Below, piece by piece: positions 35,454-64,000 of a stretch of DNA of 64,000 nucleotides. Source of the stretch: Bacteroidia bacterium (GTDB lineage: Bacteria > Bacteroidota > Bacteroidia > NS11-12g > UBA955); assembly GCA_030158725.1 (NCBI GenBank), contig JAOASJ010000126.1, positions 36,513 to 100,512 of the forward strand, in the 5' to 3' direction. Position 1 is the stretch's first letter. Each line of letters starts with the position of its first letter. A model generated the notes under the pieces. That model had not been told where the DNA came from. It was given only the letters and a program-made list of their open reading frames with translations, and searched no databases. The position numbers and the translations under genes were made by a program.

Positions 35454-36494
35454 CTATTTCTTCTTGTAAAAATCGTTTAAGTTTACCAATAAACTAAACT
35501 GATTGCTGTTGTGTCCATAAAAATAACTTGCGCTTCCGTAAGATATTTGGAATTTAGAAACTTTAAAACCTAAACCCCAGCTAAAACCAGCGGTTCCTCT
35601 TTTTTGCTCTTGTCCCATTTCTTTTCGTTTCATGTGGTTGTAACCAAAACGGACAACAAAATATTTAGATAAGTTTAATTCTCCACCTAAAGCAATATGT
35701 CGCAAGATATTGTCACCCATAGTCATGGTTTTGTATTTAGGATTTCCATTTTCGTCTTTTTCACCCGTTTCGCTTATCGTATATCTAAAATCAGGTGTCT
35801 GCAAATTATTGAAGATTAAATGGTATCTGAAAGGTAAATGCTCTAGTCTTTTAGATATGCTAATTGCCATTTCAAAAGGCAAGCCTTGGCGCTCGGTTCC
35901 ACTGTATGGAATTGCTTGGAAACCAATGTTTCTAGCAAACGCTGTAATGTTTAATTGTTTGGCAGAATCGGTATAAATAGCTGAAAGGTCTGTCGACAAT
36001 CCATTGCTTACAAATGATTCGTATATTGAATAAATGTATTTTGCATTGGCACCAACCCTAAACTTACTATTCAATTGTTTTCCATACGATAAGTTAAAGC
36101 ATTGGTCTTGGGCTTTAAATGTCCCTGTGCTTATTCCTGCTTCATTATATCCATTAAAAGTACCATAGTCATTATATAATATTCCCAATGAAAAGGTGCC
36201 TATGTTTTTAAAAGATTTTCCATATCCGAAATAACCGGAATTAATATCACTTATGTAGTTGTTGTAACTGGCAAAAACATGTTTGTCCATCGCTGAATTA
36301 AGAGCGGCTGGATTGCACCATGCTTGACTTAAATCATTGTCAATGGTAGAAATAAAACTGCTGCCCAATGACAATTGTCTAGCAGAACTGGGCATATTTA
36401 AAAAAGCAAATGCTTTTGTTCCCGCTCTTTGTGAATAGACAAATTGGGCGCTAAATAATAGTATAAACAGGGCAAGTATTTGCTTCTTCATCAT
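35454..36494 (-). CDS. porQ: PorQ, T9SS outer-membrane barrel protein
   Basis: The 346-residue protein has a signal peptide (ILALFILLFSAQFVYSQ) and a PorV/PorQ-type barrel beginning AFAFLNMPSSARQLSLGSSF with the NPAALNS motif (QAWCNPAALNSAMDKH). The rest is alternating strands ending in FSLLVNLNDFYKKK. In Porphyromonas gingivalis PorQ holds the PorU-PorZ attachment complex at the outer-membrane surface, where T9SS cargo is processed. No porU, porV or porZ is adjacent. A second Met directly follows the first, so the start may shift by one codon. Confidence 0.88.
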   Translation of the reverse strand: MMKKQILALFILLFSAQFVYSQRAGTKAFAFLNMPSSARQLSLGSSFISTIDNDLSQAWCNPAALNSAMDKHVFASYNNYISDINSGYFGYGKSFKNIGTFSLGILYNDYGTFNGYNEAGISTGTFKAQDQCFNLSYGKQLNSKFRVGANAKYIYSIYESFVSNGLSTDLSAIYTDSAKQLNITAFARNIGFQAIPYSGTERQGLPFEMAISISKRLEHLPFRYHLIFNNLQTPDFRYTISETGEKDENGNPKYKTMTMGDNILRHIALGGELNLSKYFVVRFGYNHMKRKEMGQEQKRGTAGFSWGLGFKVSKFQISYGSASYFYGHNSNQFSLLVNLNDFYKKK

Positions 36495-48086: not shown

Positions 48087-48234
48087 TCGGTTTTATTTAA
48101 CCTTTTTTCTCGTTAATTAGGCGCTATTTAATAGCTGAAATTCCTAGTAATTAGCATCTTGTATTTTCAAATAGGTTTTATGCGATGAAATATTGGTTTT
48201 TTTAACGAACTTTGCCTTTATTAACGCAAAGAGA

Positions 48235-51200
48235 ATGATTAAAGCCCATACCATTAATAGATTTTTAACACTTTTTATTTTCTTTTTATATGCTCTAGTG
48301 TCAAATGCGCAAGTTTTTGAAGGTGACTTGGCCAATAAAAAATTAAAAGGTGCTGATCTGGTAAAAGTAAGCGAACAAACAGGATTAATTCAATATGCTC
48401 AATTAAATGAGAATATTAGAATAAATGAGGCAAATGTTCAAGCTTATTTGCAAAAGGTGTACGAACTTTCGAATGCCTATACTTTTAGCATTCTTAGAAA
48501 AGAGTCTGATGAATTAGGCTTTTTACACATTCGTTATCAATTGAATTATAATAAAGTTCCTGTTCTTGGTTCTATAATAATTGCACATATAAAAAATGCT
48601 TATCTCTATTCGTTCAATGGTGAGGTTTTTAAAATATCTGAAATCAATTCACAAGTAAAATTAAATGAAAGTGAATGTCTGAAAATTGCATTGGATTCGA
48701 CACATGCAGATTCTTATTTGTGGCAAATTCCAGAAGAAGAGTCTGTAATTAAAGAAATTAAAGAAGATATTCATGCCACATGGTACCCAAAAGGTGAACT
48801 GGTTTATGTACCTGAAAATTTAAATTTCTTTAACAAAACGTTTTACTTAACCTACAAGTTTAATGTACATGCAAGTGTCCCTAGAACTGCAGAAAATATG
48901 TATGTGGATGTGAACTCGGGGAAACTAGTGGCTAGAGAAAATCAATTACACACAGTAGATGTCAATGGTAAGGCCATTACTAAGTATAGTGGAACAAAGA
49001 ATATTATTACCGATAGTACAGCACCATTTAATTACCGTCTGCGCGAGAATACTAGAGGAGGAGGAGTTTATACGCTAAACTTGAAAAAAGGCACCAATTA
49101 TGGTTTAGCCGTCGATTTCCTAGATAGTAACAACAATTGGAACAATGTAAATACAAATAAGGATGAAGTAGCTACAGATTGTCATTGGGGTGCTGAAACT
49201 ACTTATGATTATTATAAAAACAAATTCAACCGCAACAGTTACAACAACAACAACGCAAGAATTAATAGTTACGTCCATTATTCAGCTAATTACGACAACG
49301 CCTTTTGGGATGGACTTCGCATGACTTATGGTGATGGAAATTCCTTTAAACCACTAACTTCTTTGGATGTTTGTGGTCATGAAATTACCCATGCCGTAAC
49401 CAGCAATTCTGCCAACTTAATATACAGTTACCAATCAGGTCAATTAAACGAATCATTTAGTGATATTTTCGGAAATGCCGTTGAAAGATATGGTAAGCCA
49501 ACGGGTTATAGTTGGATAATCGGAGAAGAAATAACTTTTTCTGGAACAGGCTTAAGGAATATGTCAGATCCCAGAGTTAAAGGGCATCCACGTTGCTATT
49601 TAGGAACCTATTGGTACACTGGTTCAGGTGATAATGGTGGAGTACACTTAAATAGTGGGGTTCAAAATTGGTGGTTTTATCTAATAACTGAAGGCGGAAC
49701 TGGAACCAACGATTTTAGCAATGCTTATAAGGTTGACAGTCTAGGAATATTAAGTGCTGAAAAAATTGCATATAGAAATTTAACGGTTTATTTAACCCCT
49801 TCTTCTCAATATGCTGATTCACGTTTTTATTCTATTCAGGCTGCAAAAGATTTGTTTGGTCAATGTAGTAAAGAGGTCATCTCTGTAACCAATGCTTGGT
49901 ATGCGTGCAACGTTGGGCCAAAGTATGATAGCGGTTATGTTAAAGCAGCATTTTCTGCTGATACTGTTATTTGCAACACATCGAAAACCGTGAAGTTTTA
50001 TAACTTAAGTTCAAATGCAATAACTTACAAATGGACATTTGGAGATGGAAATACTTCGACAGCCGCAAATCCGACTAAAACGTATTCTAACTATGGTAAT
50101 TATACAATCAAACTTGTGGCAACAAGCTGTTTTAAAAACAAGAAAGACAGTTTAACCAAAACGGCCTATGTTAAAATTGACTCAACTTTTGATATTTGCA
50201 ATGCTATTTTAATGCCTGCTTCTGGAGTCGACAGTACCCATAAATGTAAATCATTTATATACGACGATGGAGGTGAAGACATATATTCCCAAGGAAGAAT
50301 AACCTATTTCAGAATCAGTGCACCAGGTGCAGATTCTATCCGTATTCGTTTCCTTGATTTTGATTACGAAGCTGGTTATGATAGCCTTTATGTATACAAA
50401 GGCAAATACCCTGGAACAGGCACCAAAGTTGGTGGTTACACTGGTTCAAGTTTGCCATTTTCTGGCAACAATTTCCTTGTTGCTGGTAACACAGTTACTT
50501 TAAGACATGTCTCCGATCCGTATGTGGTAGGTAGAGGTTTTAAGTTATATTATGTTGCAATTAAGAAGCCTGTAAAAGTTACTGCTTATTCAGATACCAC
50601 CATTTGTATGGGTAAATCTGCTTTGCTAAGAGCTAAAGGTAGCGGTGGTTATGCTGGTGATTATTTCTTTAAATGGAATAATTCGGTATACAATGACACC
50701 AATATTGTTGGACCAACAAGCAATACAAGTTATAAAATTAATCTAACTGATTTATGCACCAATTCTAAAGACTCTGCCACAGTTAATGTTACAGTTAGAA
50801 GTCCTTTAGATGTTAAGGCAAATAAAGATACTACCATTTGTTTAGGTCGTTCAGTTACTTTGTCCGCCGCAGCAACTGGTGGAAATTCTGCCAATTATGT
50901 GTATACCTGGGACAATGCTCTAGGTACTGGCACAACAAAAACAGTTAGTCCTACAGTAAATACTACCTACAGAGTAATTATAAGTGATGCTTGTACGCCA
51001 ATATTGGATACAGCATACATTACGGTTAAAGTTAAAGATGGTTTAAAAGTTAAGGTAAGTAGCAACGACACATTAATTTGTTACAATAAAGTGAGTGTTT
51101 TGTCTGCCAATGGCAGTGGGGGAGATACCAGTCAATATTCTTACCAATGGGCTAATGGATTGGGTATGGGTAGCAGTATTAATGCAACATTAACTAGTAG

Positions 51201-53466
51201 CCGTTGGGTAAAATGTACTTTAACAGATGCTTGCTCTGTAACACCTGCTTCTGATTCAATTTATGTAGTTGTTAGAGCGCCTTTGTCAGTTCAATTAAAC
51301 AACGATACTACCTTGTGTTATGGTAGAGGTACTAAACTAATTGCACAATCTAGTGGCGGTGTGTCAAAAGACTATATTTATAACTGGAGTCCAGTATTGT
51401 CAGACACTGCAATTCAAAATGTTAAACCCAAAACTAAAACAAAATATAAAGTTGTACTAAGTGATAATTGTTCCAATTCAGCAAGCGATTCTATCATAGT
51501 TGATGTTTTAGCTCCAATAGTGGTTAGCGGATTAAAAGACACAACTATTTGTACGGGTATGAATGTGCCTTTGATTCCTATAGTAAGTGGAGGTTTGAGT
51601 AGTTCATATACGTATACTTGGAATTTAGGTTTAGGAAATGCTACTACACAATTGGTAGCTCCTACAGGAAGCAATACCTATCAAGTCATTGTTAGAGATG
51701 GCTGCACAGTGCTTGGAGATACTGCAAGTGCTAACATTACTGTTAAGAGCGCTTTGAAACCCAAAATATTTAGTGCAGATACTTTGATTTGTTACCAAAA
51801 TACAAGTGCCTTTACAGTTACTGCCACTGGTGGTGATGTTAGTAATTACTTATATACTTGGAATAACGGATTGGGAACAGGAAGCAGCACCTCAGGTGTT
51901 ATGTCATCAAGTAAATGGGTGAAAGTTACTTTAACAGATGCTTGTACAGTCAATCCTGGTGTCGATTCAATATATGTAACAGTTAGACCAGAGTTGAAAG
52001 TTAATCTGCCTAAAGATACTTTAATTTGTTTTGGAAGTTCTATGACTTTGAGTGCAAATCCAATTGGAGGTGACGTAAATACCTACGCATATACTTGGAA
52101 TCAAGGTCTTAATTCTACACAATCAAATACCATTGCGCCGAAAGTAAAAACACAATACATCGTTTTGTTGAACGATTTGTGTTCAGCTCAAGCTACTGAC
52201 ACTATGGAGGTAGATGTAATGGCGAAAATTAAAATTTCTGGTCTAAGAGATACCACGATTTGTGATGGTGCTTCTGTGCCACTTAACCCAATTGTTACCG
52301 GAGGAATTAGCACTAATTATAAATATACATGGAACCTAGGTCAAGGTAATTCAAAGAACATTTTAGTAAAACCAACGAGCAACACAACTTATAAATTGAT
52401 TGTTGATGATCAATGCACACAACCCTATGATTCTTCTTTTGTCAACATCACAGTTCTTCCAGCTTTAAAATTAAATATTAAGCTGAGTGATAACAGTATT
52501 TGTGAAAGTGATACTTCTATTCTTAATATTAATATGAGTGGAGGTTTAAGCGCTCAATACCAATGGACTATTAATGGTTCGCCAAGTATTAGTAAATCGA
52601 TAATTGAAAATCCTTCAACAAGTACTCAATATATAGTAAACTTAATTGACAATTGCTCGCAAGCAATATCCGACACTGCCAACCTTATTGTTAACCCTAA
52701 ACCAATTGTAGATTTTTCAGTTAGTAAGCAAACGATATGCAGAAAAGAGTCTGTAACTTTTAATAATCTAAGTTCTGGTGCAGTATCTTATTGGTGGCAT
52801 TTAACACCTACAGACAGCACCAATGCGCCTAATCCAATTTTTGCTTATCAAGTTGCTGGAACGTATGACGTGAGTTTGTTCGCCGTTTCCGATTCCCTTT
52901 GTGTTAATGAAATTAAAAAGACGGCTTATATGAATGTGGTAGATTTACCCATTAGTAAGTTTACTTATTTACCAACACAACCTGATTATTTAAACCGTCT
53001 GGTAAACTTCAATAACCAATCAACAAACCAATCTAGTTTTGAATGGAGTTTTGGCGATTTTAGTAAAGAAACAGTCAATCCAAGTCCTTCTCATACATAT
53101 TCTGATACTGGTTATTTCCCTGTGCGATTAATTGTTAAAAACAGTTTAGGTTGCGCCGACACCATGTCTGAAATGTTAAGGGTAAAAGATGTTTTCAGAA
53201 TTTACATTCCAGATGCTATTACCGTTAACAACGATTTGTTAAATGATAATTTTATTGTTCTTGGTCGCGGGATACAATTTTACAACCTACAAATATTTGA
53301 CCGTTGGGGTGGTAAAATTTATGATGGAAACATGGGCGATAAACCATTTGATGGTAAAGACAGTAAAGGTGTTCCTTTAATGAAAGGCACCTATGTGGTT
53401 AATCTAACTGTTCGCGACTTCGAAGGCTTTATGCACTACATCAGACAAGTTCTAGAAGTTCTGTAA
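48235..53466 (+). CDS. Giant secreted M4 metalloprotease, T9SS type B cargo
   Basis: The ATG at 48235 begins a signal peptide (FLTLFIFFLYALVSNAQ); the track TTG start at 48193 adds a non-signal tail and is rejected. The protein has 1743 residues. Order: FTP/PepSY-type propeptide; thermolysin-like M4 catalytic domain with zinc motif CGHEITHAV near residue 380, third ligand in GQLNESFSDIFGN and active-site His in GGVHLNSGVQNWW; a PKD domain (WTFGDGNTSTAANPTKTY); a CUB-like domain; nine Ig-like repeats of 78-80 residues; two more PKD domains; and a C-terminal type B sorting domain (LQIFDRWGGKIYDGN). It is presumably exported by T9SS and attached to the surface. Confidence 0.9.
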   Translation: MIKAHTINRFLTLFIFFLYALVSNAQVFEGDLANKKLKGADLVKVSEQTGLIQYAQLNENIRINEANVQAYLQKVYELSNAYTFSILRKESDELGFLHIRYQLNYNKVPVLGSIIIAHIKNAYLYSFNGEVFKISEINSQVKLNESECLKIALDSTHADSYLWQIPEEESVIKEIKEDIHATWYPKGELVYVPENLNFFNKTFYLTYKFNVHASVPRTAENMYVDVNSGKLVARENQLHTVDVNGKAITKYSGTKNIITDSTAPFNYRLRENTRGGGVYTLNLKKGTNYGLAVDFLDSNNNWNNVNTNKDEVATDCHWGAETTYDYYKNKFNRNSYNNNNARINSYVHYSANYDNAFWDGLRMTYGDGNSFKPLTSLDVCGHEITHAVTSNSANLIYSYQSGQLNESFSDIFGNAVERYGKPTGYSWIIGEEITFSGTGLRNMSDPRVKGHPRCYLGTYWYTGSGDNGGVHLNSGVQNWWFYLITEGGTGTNDFSNAYKVDSLGILSAEKIAYRNLTVYLTPSSQYADSRFYSIQAAKDLFGQCSKEVISVTNAWYACNVGPKYDSGYVKAAFSADTVICNTSKTVKFYNLSSNAITYKWTFGDGNTSTAANPTKTYSNYGNYTIKLVATSCFKNKKDSLTKTAYVKIDSTFDICNAILMPASGVDSTHKCKSFIYDDGGEDIYSQGRITYFRISAPGADSIRIRFLDFDYEAGYDSLYVYKGKYPGTGTKVGGYTGSSLPFSGNNFLVAGNTVTLRHVSDPYVVGRGFKLYYVAIKKPVKVTAYSDTTICMGKSALLRAKGSGGYAGDYFFKWNNSVYNDTNIVGPTSNTSYKINLTDLCTNSKDSATVNVTVRSPLDVKANKDTTICLGRSVTLSAAATGGNSANYVYTWDNALGTGTTKTVSPTVNTTYRVIISDACTPILDTAYITVKVKDGLKVKVSSNDTLICYNKVSVLSANGSGGDTSQYSYQWANGLGMGSSINATLTSSRWVKCTLTDACSVTPASDSIYVVVRAPLSVQLNNDTTLCYGRGTKLIAQSSGGVSKDYIYNWSPVLSDTAIQNVKPKTKTKYKVVLSDNCSNSASDSIIVDVLAPIVVSGLKDTTICTGMNVPLIPIVSGGLSSSYTYTWNLGLGNATTQLVAPTGSNTYQVIVRDGCTVLGDTASANITVKSALKPKIFSADTLICYQNTSAFTVTATGGDVSNYLYTWNNGLGTGSSTSGVMSSSKWVKVTLTDACTVNPGVDSIYVTVRPELKVNLPKDTLICFGSSMTLSANPIGGDVNTYAYTWNQGLNSTQSNTIAPKVKTQYIVLLNDLCSAQATDTMEVDVMAKIKISGLRDTTICDGASVPLNPIVTGGISTNYKYTWNLGQGNSKNILVKPTSNTTYKLIVDDQCTQPYDSSFVNITVLPALKLNIKLSDNSICESDTSILNINMSGGLSAQYQWTINGSPSISKSIIENPSTSTQYIVNLIDNCSQAISDTANLIVNPKPIVDFSVSKQTICRKESVTFNNLSSGAVSYWWHLTPTDSTNAPNPIFAYQVAGTYDVSLFAVSDSLCVNEIKKTAYMNVVDLPISKFTYLPTQPDYLNRLVNFNNQSTNQSSFEWSFGDFSKETVNPSPSHTYSDTGYFPVRLIVKNSLGCADTMSEMLRVKDVFRIYIPDAITVNNDLLNDNFIVLGRGIQFYNLQIFDRWGGKIYDGNMGDKPFDGKDSKGVPLMKGTYVVNLTVRDFEGFMHYIRQVLEVL
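50593..52728 (+). repeat. Nine Ig-like tandem units with a 711-bp higher-order repeat
   Basis: Units start at the Asp codon of DTTIC/DTLIC: 50593, 50827, 51067, 51304, 51538, 51778, 52015, 52249, 52489. Their lengths are 234, 240, 237, 234, 240, 237, 234, 240, 240 nt. Sequence similarity follows the same phase: unit 3 resembles 6 (SSxWVKxTLTDAC), 4 resembles 7 (KTxYxVxLxDxCS), 5 resembles 8 (VPLxPIVxGG). A three-unit block of 711 bp (51067-51777, 51778-52488) is therefore duplicated, with a partial copy before it. Each unit has a Cys near its start and one about 55 residues later. Confidence 0.93.
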
Positions 53467-53469
53467 CTT

Positions 53470-54138
53470 ATGCTTAACACAAAAGTGTTCTTGGGAACTT
53501 TGCTAGCTTGTATACTTGCTTCATCATCATTCCAAGAAAAAGAAACTATCCCAACGATTAAAATTGGTAATTTAATTTGGATGACCAATAACCTAGATGT
53601 CGATACATTTAGAAATGGAGACACAATACCAGAAGCTAAGACATATTATGCTTTAGACAGTTTTGCTCGTCTTAAGCAAGCAGCTTGGAGTTATTACAAC
53701 AACCATAAAGATCCAAAATCTACTTACGGAAGGCTATATAATTGGTATGCTGTAAATGATGCTAGGGGACTTGCCCCAAAAGGTTATCATGTTGCCACAA
53801 AGAATGAATGGCTTTCGCTAATTGATACTTTAGGTGGAAAAGAAAATGCAGGATTAAAGTTAAAATCCAATCGAGAATGGACCAAATCCAATGGGCCATT
53901 TCCAAACAATGTTCAATCAAATGGGTTCAATGCCTTGCCCGGTGGTTACCAATGGGCAAGTGGAGGAGGATTCAGTTTTAAACATGAAACAGGCTTTTGG
54001 TGGACTTCAACTGCAATTAGCTCTTCGCAAGCCGTCAATTTTAGTTTGTACCATATTAGCGGTTACGTTGACCAATCTAATATGAATTTTGAAAATGCCA
54101 TTTCAGTGCGCTGTGTCAAGGATACTTTAAAACTTTAA
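53470..54138 (+). CDS. FISUMP-domain protein (Fibrobacter major paralogous domain)
   Basis: A 222-residue secreted protein with a signal-like N-terminus (VFLGTLLACILASSSFQ). The body has the FISUMP pattern: IKIGNLIWMTNNLDVDTFRNG, YGRLYNWYAVNDARGLAPKGYHVATKNEW, GFNALPGGYQW, GFWWTST and a terminal SVRCVKD. The domain is related to C-type-lectin-like folds and is common on surface proteins. It begins 3 bases after the M4 protease stop and is likely co-expressed with it; a physical link is not shown. Confidence 0.85.
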   Translation: MLNTKVFLGTLLACILASSSFQEKETIPTIKIGNLIWMTNNLDVDTFRNGDTIPEAKTYYALDSFARLKQAAWSYYNNHKDPKSTYGRLYNWYAVNDARGLAPKGYHVATKNEWLSLIDTLGGKENAGLKLKSNREWTKSNGPFPNNVQSNGFNALPGGYQWASGGGFSFKHETGFWWTSTAISSSQAVNFSLYHISGYVDQSNMNFENAISVRCVKDTLKL

Positions 54139-62610: not shown

Positions 62611-64000
62611 CTATCGTATTAACTGAATTACACCATTTATAGTCTTTATTTCTTCTGGCTTATTCTTTATGCTGTATCTGAAAATATAGTAATAAGTACC
62701 TGATGCACATTCAGCACCAATATTCATGACTTTTCCATTCCAATTTCCATTTTGCGTATTGTCATAATCCTTGTCCGCTTCATAAACCAATACACCCCAA
62801 CGGTCATAGATTTTTAAATCATACAAGGATTCATTTTCTATCAAGATGTCATAAAGATCATTGTAATTGTCAATGCTTCCAGGCGTAAATACGTTGAAGA
62901 TTCCAAAATCGCTTAAGCGGTCGTTTATCACCATTTTACATATAGTATCTGCACACCCAAAAGGAATGGTAGCAATCAAACAAACATTGTAGGTGCCTGT
63001 ATCATTGCCATAATTTTTCTCAGGGTTTTGTTCTGTCGAGGTATTGCCTGGACCGGCTTGACCAAAATTCCAATTTAAGCCCGCACTTAACGGATTTGAA
63101 TTGTTGTTGAATTTAAATAAAGGTGGCAGTGAACTTGGGTTTATTGTAAAGTCTGCTTTTACGCCTAGAACAGTTATAGTTTTCTGTGCACTATCTCTGC
63201 AGAAATCACTTGTTTTATCCAAATAACTTGGGTTTAATTTAACTAGAAATTGTCCTGCACGTTTGTATTTGTGACCAACTTGTAATCTGCGGTTTGTATC
63301 TAAACTATTGGAATCACCAAAAGTCCAATGGTCTTGTTTATATGCAGTGTCACTCAGACTATTCAACTGTAATGTAGTTCCAATACATATTGTGTCTGCG
63401 CTTGTTATACCTGTTGTTTTAAATGGCAAAACCAATACGCTTCTATTGGTGTCTTTTTGATATATCTTATCCGGGAAAGTGTTGTAACAATATTGGTATT
63501 GTTTTGTAAATGGATTGTATACCGTATCTATACCAATTAAACTGATATAGTATCTGCCCGGCTTGTTGTAAGTGAATTGGACATTTTGTTTGTCAAACTT
63601 TTGTATAGTTGTTTTACTAGAGTCACCAAATTGCCAAATATACTGCCTGCAATTTCGTGATTTATTCATAAAAGTCGCAGTTAAACTTTTACAACCAATC
63701 GTGTCTTTGATGAAAAAATAAGGTTTAGAGCCAATAACTTTTATATAGTAAAATGCAGTATCAACACAACCAGAAACTGTCCGAATAGCCAAAGCACCAG
63801 GAATACTGTCGAGAGAGGTATTAATAGATTGAACCGGATTCTTCTTAAGAGATGAAAAAGTTCCTTGACCAAATTGCCAAGAATAGCTTGTAATGCTGTC
63901 TAAATAAAACCCGGGACTAAATTTACGCCATGCTGGGTATTTATTGTAAAACGATGAATCGTAAAATTGTTTTAATTCAGAACAGTAAATATATTTAGAA
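62611..64000 (-). CDS. PKD-rich T9SS type B cargo protein, N-terminal part outside the window
   Basis: The track start at 63792 is a TTG inside the gene: the frame stays open to the end of the window, reading SYSWQFGQGTFSS and similar upstream, so the 5' part is missing. The visible 460 or so residues hold several PKD-type domains (YIWQFGDSSKTTIQKF, DHWTFGDSNSLDTNRRL, LNWNFGQAGPGNTSTEQNPE). A C-terminal type B sorting domain follows (FNVFTPGSIDNYNDLYDI, LKIYDRWGVLVYEADKDYD, YYYIFRYSIKN). It should be a large surface or secreted protein exported by T9SS. Confidence 0.9.
   Translation of the reverse strand, partial: SKYIYCSELKQFYDSSFYNKYPAWRKFSPGFYLDSITSYSWQFGQGTFSSLKKNPVQSINTSLDSIPGALAIRTVSGCVDTAFYYIKVIGSKPYFFIKDTIGCKSLTATFMNKSRNCRQYIWQFGDSSKTTIQKFDKQNVQFTYNKPGRYYISLIGIDTVYNPFTKQYQYCYNTFPDKIYQKDTNRSVLVLPFKTTGITSADTICIGTTLQLNSLSDTAYKQDHWTFGDSNSLDTNRRLQVGHKYKRAGQFLVKLNPSYLDKTSDFCRDSAQKTITVLGVKADFTINPSSLPPLFKFNNNSNPLSAGLNWNFGQAGPGNTSTEQNPEKNYGNDTGTYNVCLIATIPFGCADTICKMVINDRLSDFGIFNVFTPGSIDNYNDLYDILIENESLYDLKIYDRWGVLVYEADKDYDNTQNGNWNGKVMNIGAECASGTYYYIFRYSIKNKPEEIKTINGVIQLIR

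Follow-up and report, generated by a model that had tools for sequence, protein, structure and literature searches.

A nine-unit Ig-like array in a predicted Bacteroidia M4 metalloprotease, probably expanded from six units by a single three-unit duplication

The protease gene and its domain architecture

The window considered here is a 64,000-nucleotide stretch of contig JAOASJ010000126.1 from a Bacteroidia bacterium whose 2.67-Mb assembly comprises 131 contigs. On its forward strand lies a gene whose product is probably a secreted, cell-surface M4 metalloprotease, with a domain order that runs from a signal peptide through FTP, M4, PKD and CUB domains to an array of nine Ig/PKD-like, two-cysteine units, followed by PKD domains and a C-terminal CHU_C domain. 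Outside the array, the features are as follows.

48193..53466, + strand: whole open reading frame of 1757 aa
48481..48627, + strand: FTP propeptide motif, aa 97-145 (Pfam PF07504)
48970..49914, + strand: M4 (thermolysin-like) peptidase, aa 260-574, with its two Pfam halves (PF01447 and PF02868, each over cut-off)
49990..50166, + strand: PKD domain, aa 600-658 (Pfam match)
50272..50553, + strand: CUB domain, aa 694-787 (PF00431, over cut-off)
52699..53160, + strand: PKD region that follows the array and precedes the C-terminal signal, with approximate edges (Pfam and sequence reading)
53203..53412, + strand: C-terminal CHU_C domain, a type IX secretion signal (type B), aa 1671-1740 (PF13585, over cut-off)

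Judged by eye, the likely true start of the protein is the ATG at 48235, which is followed by what reads as a Sec-type signal peptide, MIKAHTINRFLTLFIFFLYALVSNAQ. The two M4 halves score 131.5 bits (cut-off 22.4) and 153.3 bits (cut-off 24.4). With the zinc motif HExxH present as HEITH, and the downstream glutamate read in the sequence within NESFSD, the M4 active site looks intact and proteolytic activity is predicted; in the homologues, HExxH and the downstream N-E/Q motif were located by pattern. Over the whole protein, PF18911 matches three stretches and PF00801 matches four. The terminal CHU_C domain scores 41.2 bits against a cut-off of 27, and TIGR04131, the NCBI type B signal model, reaches 18.1 bits, under its curated cut-off of 35, so that Pfam is the sole source of the “type B” assignment.

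The closest named homologues come from metagenome assemblies of uncultured Bacteroidota. Among the viral contigs searched, only two M4 relatives were found, both of them distant, and the literature on M4 proteases combined with T9SS yielded nothing on this protein. A few bases past the stop codon of the protease, at 53470-54138 (+), lies a gene for a Fib_succ_major domain protein, and co-transcription of the two is possible.

Nine units in an exact length cycle

The array that follows the CUB domain consists of nine units of 78 to 80 residues. They are denoted U1 to U9, as distinct from units u1 to u6 of the six-unit homologues described below.

50566..50799, + strand: unit 1 (78 aa), u1 orthologue (identity comparison)
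50800..51039, + strand: unit 2 (80 aa), u2 orthologue (identity comparison)
51040..51276, + strand: unit 3 (79 aa), u3 type, with three cysteines (identity comparison, cysteine positions)
51277..51510, + strand: unit 4 (78 aa), u4 type (identity comparison)
51511..51750, + strand: unit 5 (80 aa), u5/u2 chimera (column-wise nearest unit, breakpoint scan)
51751..51987, + strand: unit 6 (79 aa), second u3-type copy (identity comparison)
51988..52221, + strand: unit 7 (78 aa), second u4-type copy (identity comparison)
52222..52461, + strand: unit 8 (80 aa), u5 orthologue (identity comparison)
52462..52698, + strand: unit 9 (79 aa), u6 orthologue and no phase mate of units 3 and 6 (identity comparison)

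The first cysteines of the nine units fall at residues 805, 883, 963, 1042, 1120, 1200, 1279, 1357 and 1437 of the open reading frame, in steps of 78, 80, 79, 78, 80, 79, 78 and 80 codons, or 234, 240, 237, 234, 240, 237, 234 and 240 nt. The 237/234/240-nt cycle reported by the initial annotation, which had been made from the sequence, is therefore exact, and the coordinates given with it, 50593-52728, span the array, for which unit placement sets bounds of 50566-52698. Both conserved cysteines of the unit are invariant or nearly so in the aligned blocks. Two cysteines per unit, as had been proposed, is the right count for most of the units but not for unit 3, which has three. The extra residue there is Cys 1008 (51214-51216), six residues ahead of the second conserved cysteine.

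Comparison of all nine units with one another, a check that the initial annotation had itself put forward, shows that units three apart are the most alike, with a mean amino acid identity of 44% as against means of 30–34% at each other lag. This excess of 11 points has a permutation P of 0.0003 when the order of the window's units is shuffled, and P=0.00035 when the excess is averaged over 14 orthologues. The individual lag-3 identities are 36, 46, 57, 40, 56 and 29% (pairs 1/4, 2/5, 3/6, 4/7, 5/8 and 6/9). The likeness claimed for units 3 with 6, 4 with 7 and 5 with 8 is thus borne out, while the placing of units 1 and 2 in the phase of units 4 and 5 holds for the second member of that pair and fails for the first. 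Pairs 1/4 and 6/9 are not raised, and their averages over the orthologues are ~35% and ~23%; unit 1 has 40 and 44% identity to units 2 and 8 as compared with its 36% to unit 4, and unit 9 is unlike either unit 3 or unit 6 (29%). At the DNA level the copies have diverged too far for Tandem Repeats Finder, which detected no array. What one finds, then, is likeness at a fixed lag and no division of the whole array into equivalent blocks: with units 1 and 9 unmatched and a junction lying inside unit 5, such a division cannot be made.

Homologues with nine and with six units

Across 59 related genomes searched, co-linear nine-unit arrays were found in the same genus. The count is nine in each of the 14 arrays of the genus whose sequence is complete, and a partial copy (L076) is consistent with this over the part present; the array occurs in the assemblies of 14 other species, in one of which it is cut by a contig end. 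The length cycle recurs in every other copy of the genus, one subclade (L069-L072, L074 and L075) having a third step of 78 rather than 79 residues in both periods. Homologues from the family's other genera, and from a second family, have mostly six units. The comparison of array length among relatives that had been suggested thus gives a clear result, nine units in the genus and mostly six outside it. G001 and G002, two near-complete genomes of the same genus, have no match to the PKD-CUB region of the protease, and gene loss is probable in these.

With the PKD-CUB region used as a query across 108 genomes of the order, intact frames of ~1740–1770 aa were found in the genus (1741–1772 aa when uncut, a range occupied by this genus only), and the closest homologues outside it reach at most 1533 aa, a gap to the genus that is close to 237 aa. 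Among these 108 genomes there are no nine-unit frames outside the genus, the one frame of 2764 aa found there being a distant paralogue.

In genus g16, a member of the second family, the six units are spaced by 78, 80, 79, 78 and 80 residues, and in more distant six-unit homologues the series differs, for example 78, 79, 84, 79 and 80. The six-unit arrays show no lag-3 excess in identity (P=0.53 in g16 and 0.14 in the other family). Since six-unit relatives already cycle in length with no such excess, the nine-unit cycle amounts to one period added to a pre-existing length pattern. The earlier 78-80-79-78-80 series may itself be due to chance or be the relic of an older duplication.

A chimeric fifth unit and the duplicated segment

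The unit map follows directly from the mean identities to the units of g16. U1 corresponds to u1 (56%), U2 to u2 (52%), U3 to u3 (53%), U4 to u4 (49%), U6 again to u3 (50%), U7 again to u4 (50%), U8 to u5 (53%) and U9 to u6 (42%), and, taken protein by protein, 13–14 of 14 agree on the best six-unit match of each unit. U5 has a mean identity of 49% to u2, its nearest unit, and 43% to u5.

Although u2 is nearest to U5 overall in 14/14 proteins, the first 14 alignment columns are nearest to u5 in 12/14, with a u5-type “GLxD” ahead of the first cysteine; the remainder is nearest to u2, in 11/14 proteins over columns 14–40 and in 13/14 over columns 41–80. The u5-like start extends over the first 8–14 residues, and up to ~28 in the window's own clade, beyond which the unit is u2-like. 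When U5 was scanned for a single breakpoint against only the six-unit proteins, P was 0.0006; the controls gave 0.04 for U2 (marginal) and 0.41 for U8. U5 is accordingly a chimera, and all subclades have one of this kind, the breakpoints lying close to where the unit begins. The duplication junction falls within ~51535-51597, and from these comparisons we infer two copies of a 711-bp segment.

50830..51540, + strand: putative copy 1, comprising the rest of unit 2, units 3 and 4, and the start of unit 5 (edges +/- ~60 nt)
51541..52251, + strand: putative copy 2, comprising the rest of unit 5, units 6 and 7, and the start of unit 8 (edges +/- ~60 nt)

The sequence evidence supports growth through mid-array copying of this segment of three units, rather than through the addition of single units. 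Only one such duplication is demonstrable, an internal one with its edges inside units, and the six-unit homologues, the unit map and the U5 chimera together point to one in-frame unequal crossover inside a unit. The initial annotation had the array growing by a 711-bp three-domain block. One three-unit copy of that size is indeed indicated by the six-unit homologues, by the pairs U3/U6 and U4/U7 and by the u5/u2 makeup of U5; the array as a whole is not a set of three modules.

Predicted fold and role of the units

AlphaFold2 modeling of units 3–5, with 15 aligned in-phase blocks, gave a mean pLDDT of 94.3 and a pTM of 0.75, and predicts three successive beta-sandwich domains. Searched by fold against the PDB, the three-unit block has 104 matches at E<=0.001, the best 50 of these 104 being mostly tandem Ig-like proteins; the Aureispira grappling-hook protein GhpA (9flw, fragment 6) ranks first, and titin I67-I69 is among the best. 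By sequence, the Ig matches in the PDB are weak (best E 0.0023). In Pfam, 8 of 15 homologous blocks match SprB and 4 of 15 match Ig_7 (“Ig-like domain CHU_C associated”), and the window's own units 3–5 have no SprB or Ig_7 match at E<=0.01, showing only a PKD match below the cut-off. As modeled, the units are Ig-like all-beta sandwich domains, in each of which a putative disulfide between the two conserved cysteines is plausible.

Given the domain order and this fold, the likeliest role of the nine units is that of a semi-rigid stalk, keeping the protease at the N-terminus apart from the anchor at the C-terminus. Such a reading is in line with bacterial fibrillar adhesins, in which repeated domains make stalks (PMC8286594). 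The suggestion that the three-domain block might be the functional or folding unit finds no support in the structure prediction of one such block that had been proposed alongside it. Each unit of the block is predicted as a separate sandwich and the recombination junction cuts a unit, and a three-domain folding unit is rejected on both counts. We give only a slender chance to the idea that a three-domain register, such as a repeating twist or hinge, is kept by selection, with exchange between units three apart homogenizing phase-equivalent units and holding the stalk at multiples of three.

Age of the duplication and probable later exchange

In the duplicated pairs of the window, third codon positions are 40–46% identical, as against 33% expected by chance. 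With synonymous sites thus near saturation, the duplication is old and is not a product of mis-assembly. Over most of the genus the repeats are ~47–53% identical to those of the window, and the adjoining peptidase-CUB region is 73–81% identical; on this comparison, the repeats evolve faster than the region beside them.

The N-terminal half of U8 (52264-52356) in the window's subclade, for which orthologues L063 and L064 were examined, shares 59% identity with its own U5 and 39% with the U8 of the sister clade, while for the C-terminal half the corresponding values are 45% and 56%. This suggests that the N-terminal half of U8 was overwritten later, by conversion with unit-5-like sequence and in the window's subclade only, and the 56% identity of pair 5/8 would be due in part to such conversion. 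In subclade B (L069-L072, L074 and L075), U3 and U6 both lack the same single residue after GG, which points to either exchange between units three apart or independent duplication.

In trees of the copied units, built on 157 columns, U3U4 and U6U7 do not come out as clean clades. In AU tests, a single clade of U3U4 or of U6U7 has p 0.13 and 0.08, and the grouping within subclade B (B34+B67) has p 0.35, so that none is rejected; with only 157 columns, the trees do not separate one duplication plus conversion from two duplications. A tree of the flanking region places the nine-unit proteins on one side of a branch with a support of 51, and the six-unit proteins on several outer branches. In this tree the genus groups with g16 of another family, not with the genera of its own family, for which horizontal transfer or a taxonomy problem is a possible reason.

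How the array grew

We consider it very probable that a six-unit ancestor became a nine-unit array by one unequal recombination, with later conversion, in the stalk of a secreted M4 protease. The ancestor of the genus would have carried an array of six units. Unequal homologous recombination, in frame and within a unit, would then have joined unit 5 of one copy to unit 2 of another, with the crossover early in unit 5 and at the matching point of unit 2, adding the rest of u2, then u3, u4 and the start of u5. Exactly 237 codons would have been inserted in this way, raising the count to nine and making unit 5 a chimera. The two exchanged units, u2 and u5, have the same length of 80 residues, so the chimera also has 80 and the 78-80-79-78-80 series runs on unbroken. 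Since then, conversion between units at lag 3 has probably kept their lengths and sequences matched.

The most serious alternative, though in our view an unlikely one, is that subclades A and B reached nine units independently by similar three-unit duplications. The within-genome similarity of U3 and U6 (~55%) is at least as great as that of orthologues between subclades (~50%), the one-residue gap common to U3 and U6 is found in subclade B only, and the B34+B67 clade is not rejected by the AU test (p 0.35). Conversion explains these same data, however, and the N-terminal half of U8 suggests that conversion does occur; moreover, a U5 chimera of the same kind, with its breakpoints near the unit start, is common to all subclades, and the nine-unit proteins fall on one side of the flanking-tree branch, albeit with a support of only 51. 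That the entire array might be a true higher-order repeat, three copies of a three-domain module grown twice by the same, functional block, strikes us as improbable. One would then understand the perfect 78-80-79 cycle across all eight spacings, and the g16 series is such as an older block duplication would leave, but a lag-3 excess is absent from the six-unit arrays (P 0.53 and 0.14), identity is just 36% between units 1 and 4 and 29% between units 6 and 9 (~35% and ~23% on the orthologue average), and the distant six-unit homologues have another length series (78, 79, 84, 79, 80).

Very improbable, too, is the reverse order of events, with nine units ancestral and three lost in the other genera. 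A deletion of U5–U7 would leave the same orthology map, yet parallel losses would have to be assumed for several genera across two families, against the evidence of the flanking tree, the joining of u5 and u2 features in U5 would go unexplained, and no nine-unit frames are found outside the genus in the 108 genomes of the order. We attach next to no probability to the cycle being a chance pattern among units of similar length or an artefact of assembly. As the units span only 78–80 residues, a three-cycle in length alone is not very improbable, but sequence identity follows the same lag (P=0.0003). Mis-assembly, named in the initial annotation as something that could undo its reading, is ruled out by the divergence of the copies, which differ at 40–60% of their residues and have third positions 40–46% identical, as no assembler would make from one copy, and by the independent assemblies of 14 other species in which the array is also present.

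Relation to known repeat systems

Super-repeats are a feature of titin. Nebulin has a seven-domain unit (PMC1553488), and here, as in both of these systems, the domains a fixed number apart are the most alike; whereas nebulin and titin have many regular blocks, the present array appears to have had one three-unit block added once, with the end units lying outside it. Domain repeats often expand by several domains at once and in the middle of the array, and repeat proteins are much scarcer in prokaryotes than in eukaryotes (Bjorklund, Ekman and Elofsson, 2006; PMC1553488). The several-domain, mid-array growth proposed here is like the expansion described in that survey, and the case differs in that a bacterial before-and-after pair and a junction within a unit are visible. 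The general mechanism is already well documented, and this is a tidy example of it, not a new kind of system. Its value lies in offering a clean six/nine pair for the growth of a bacterial surface-protein stalk, with a recombination junction traceable to part of one domain, and in illustrating that a striking length cycle can come from one duplication over a pre-existing length pattern. It bears as well on how secreted Bacteroidota proteins adjust their reach.

Among surface proteins of the Bacteroidota, the protease resembles Aureispira GhpA (PDB 9flw), to which the three-unit block matches with an E of 2.5e-9, a TM of 0.58 by query length and 18% identity. GhpA, however, is a giant protein, of which the solved fragment covers residues 3571-4078, and a 1757-aa protease has only the domain fold in common with it. 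There is a likeness as well to type IX modular surface proteins with SprB repeats, Ig_7 and CHU_C domains, given that CHU_C is over its cut-off here and that the homologous blocks match SprB and Ig_7; unlike in those proteins, the window's own units 3–5 have only the sub-cut-off PKD match in Pfam.

The type IX secretion setting

The host genome encodes SprA (2442 bits), four PorV-family proteins over cut-off and 37 CHU_C matches over cut-off, so the cell has a type IX system serving many cargoes. One PorV-family protein is found in the window itself, at 35478-36419 (-), with a score of 171 bits that is over the cut-off. The window also contains, close to its end, a second CHU_C type IX signal at 62626-62901 (-), inside an open frame of 462 aa. 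Elsewhere in the same genome, two CHU_C proteins (G000:C5:6008-7540 and G000:C12:1753-3660) have units that are 33–40% identical to the units of the array.
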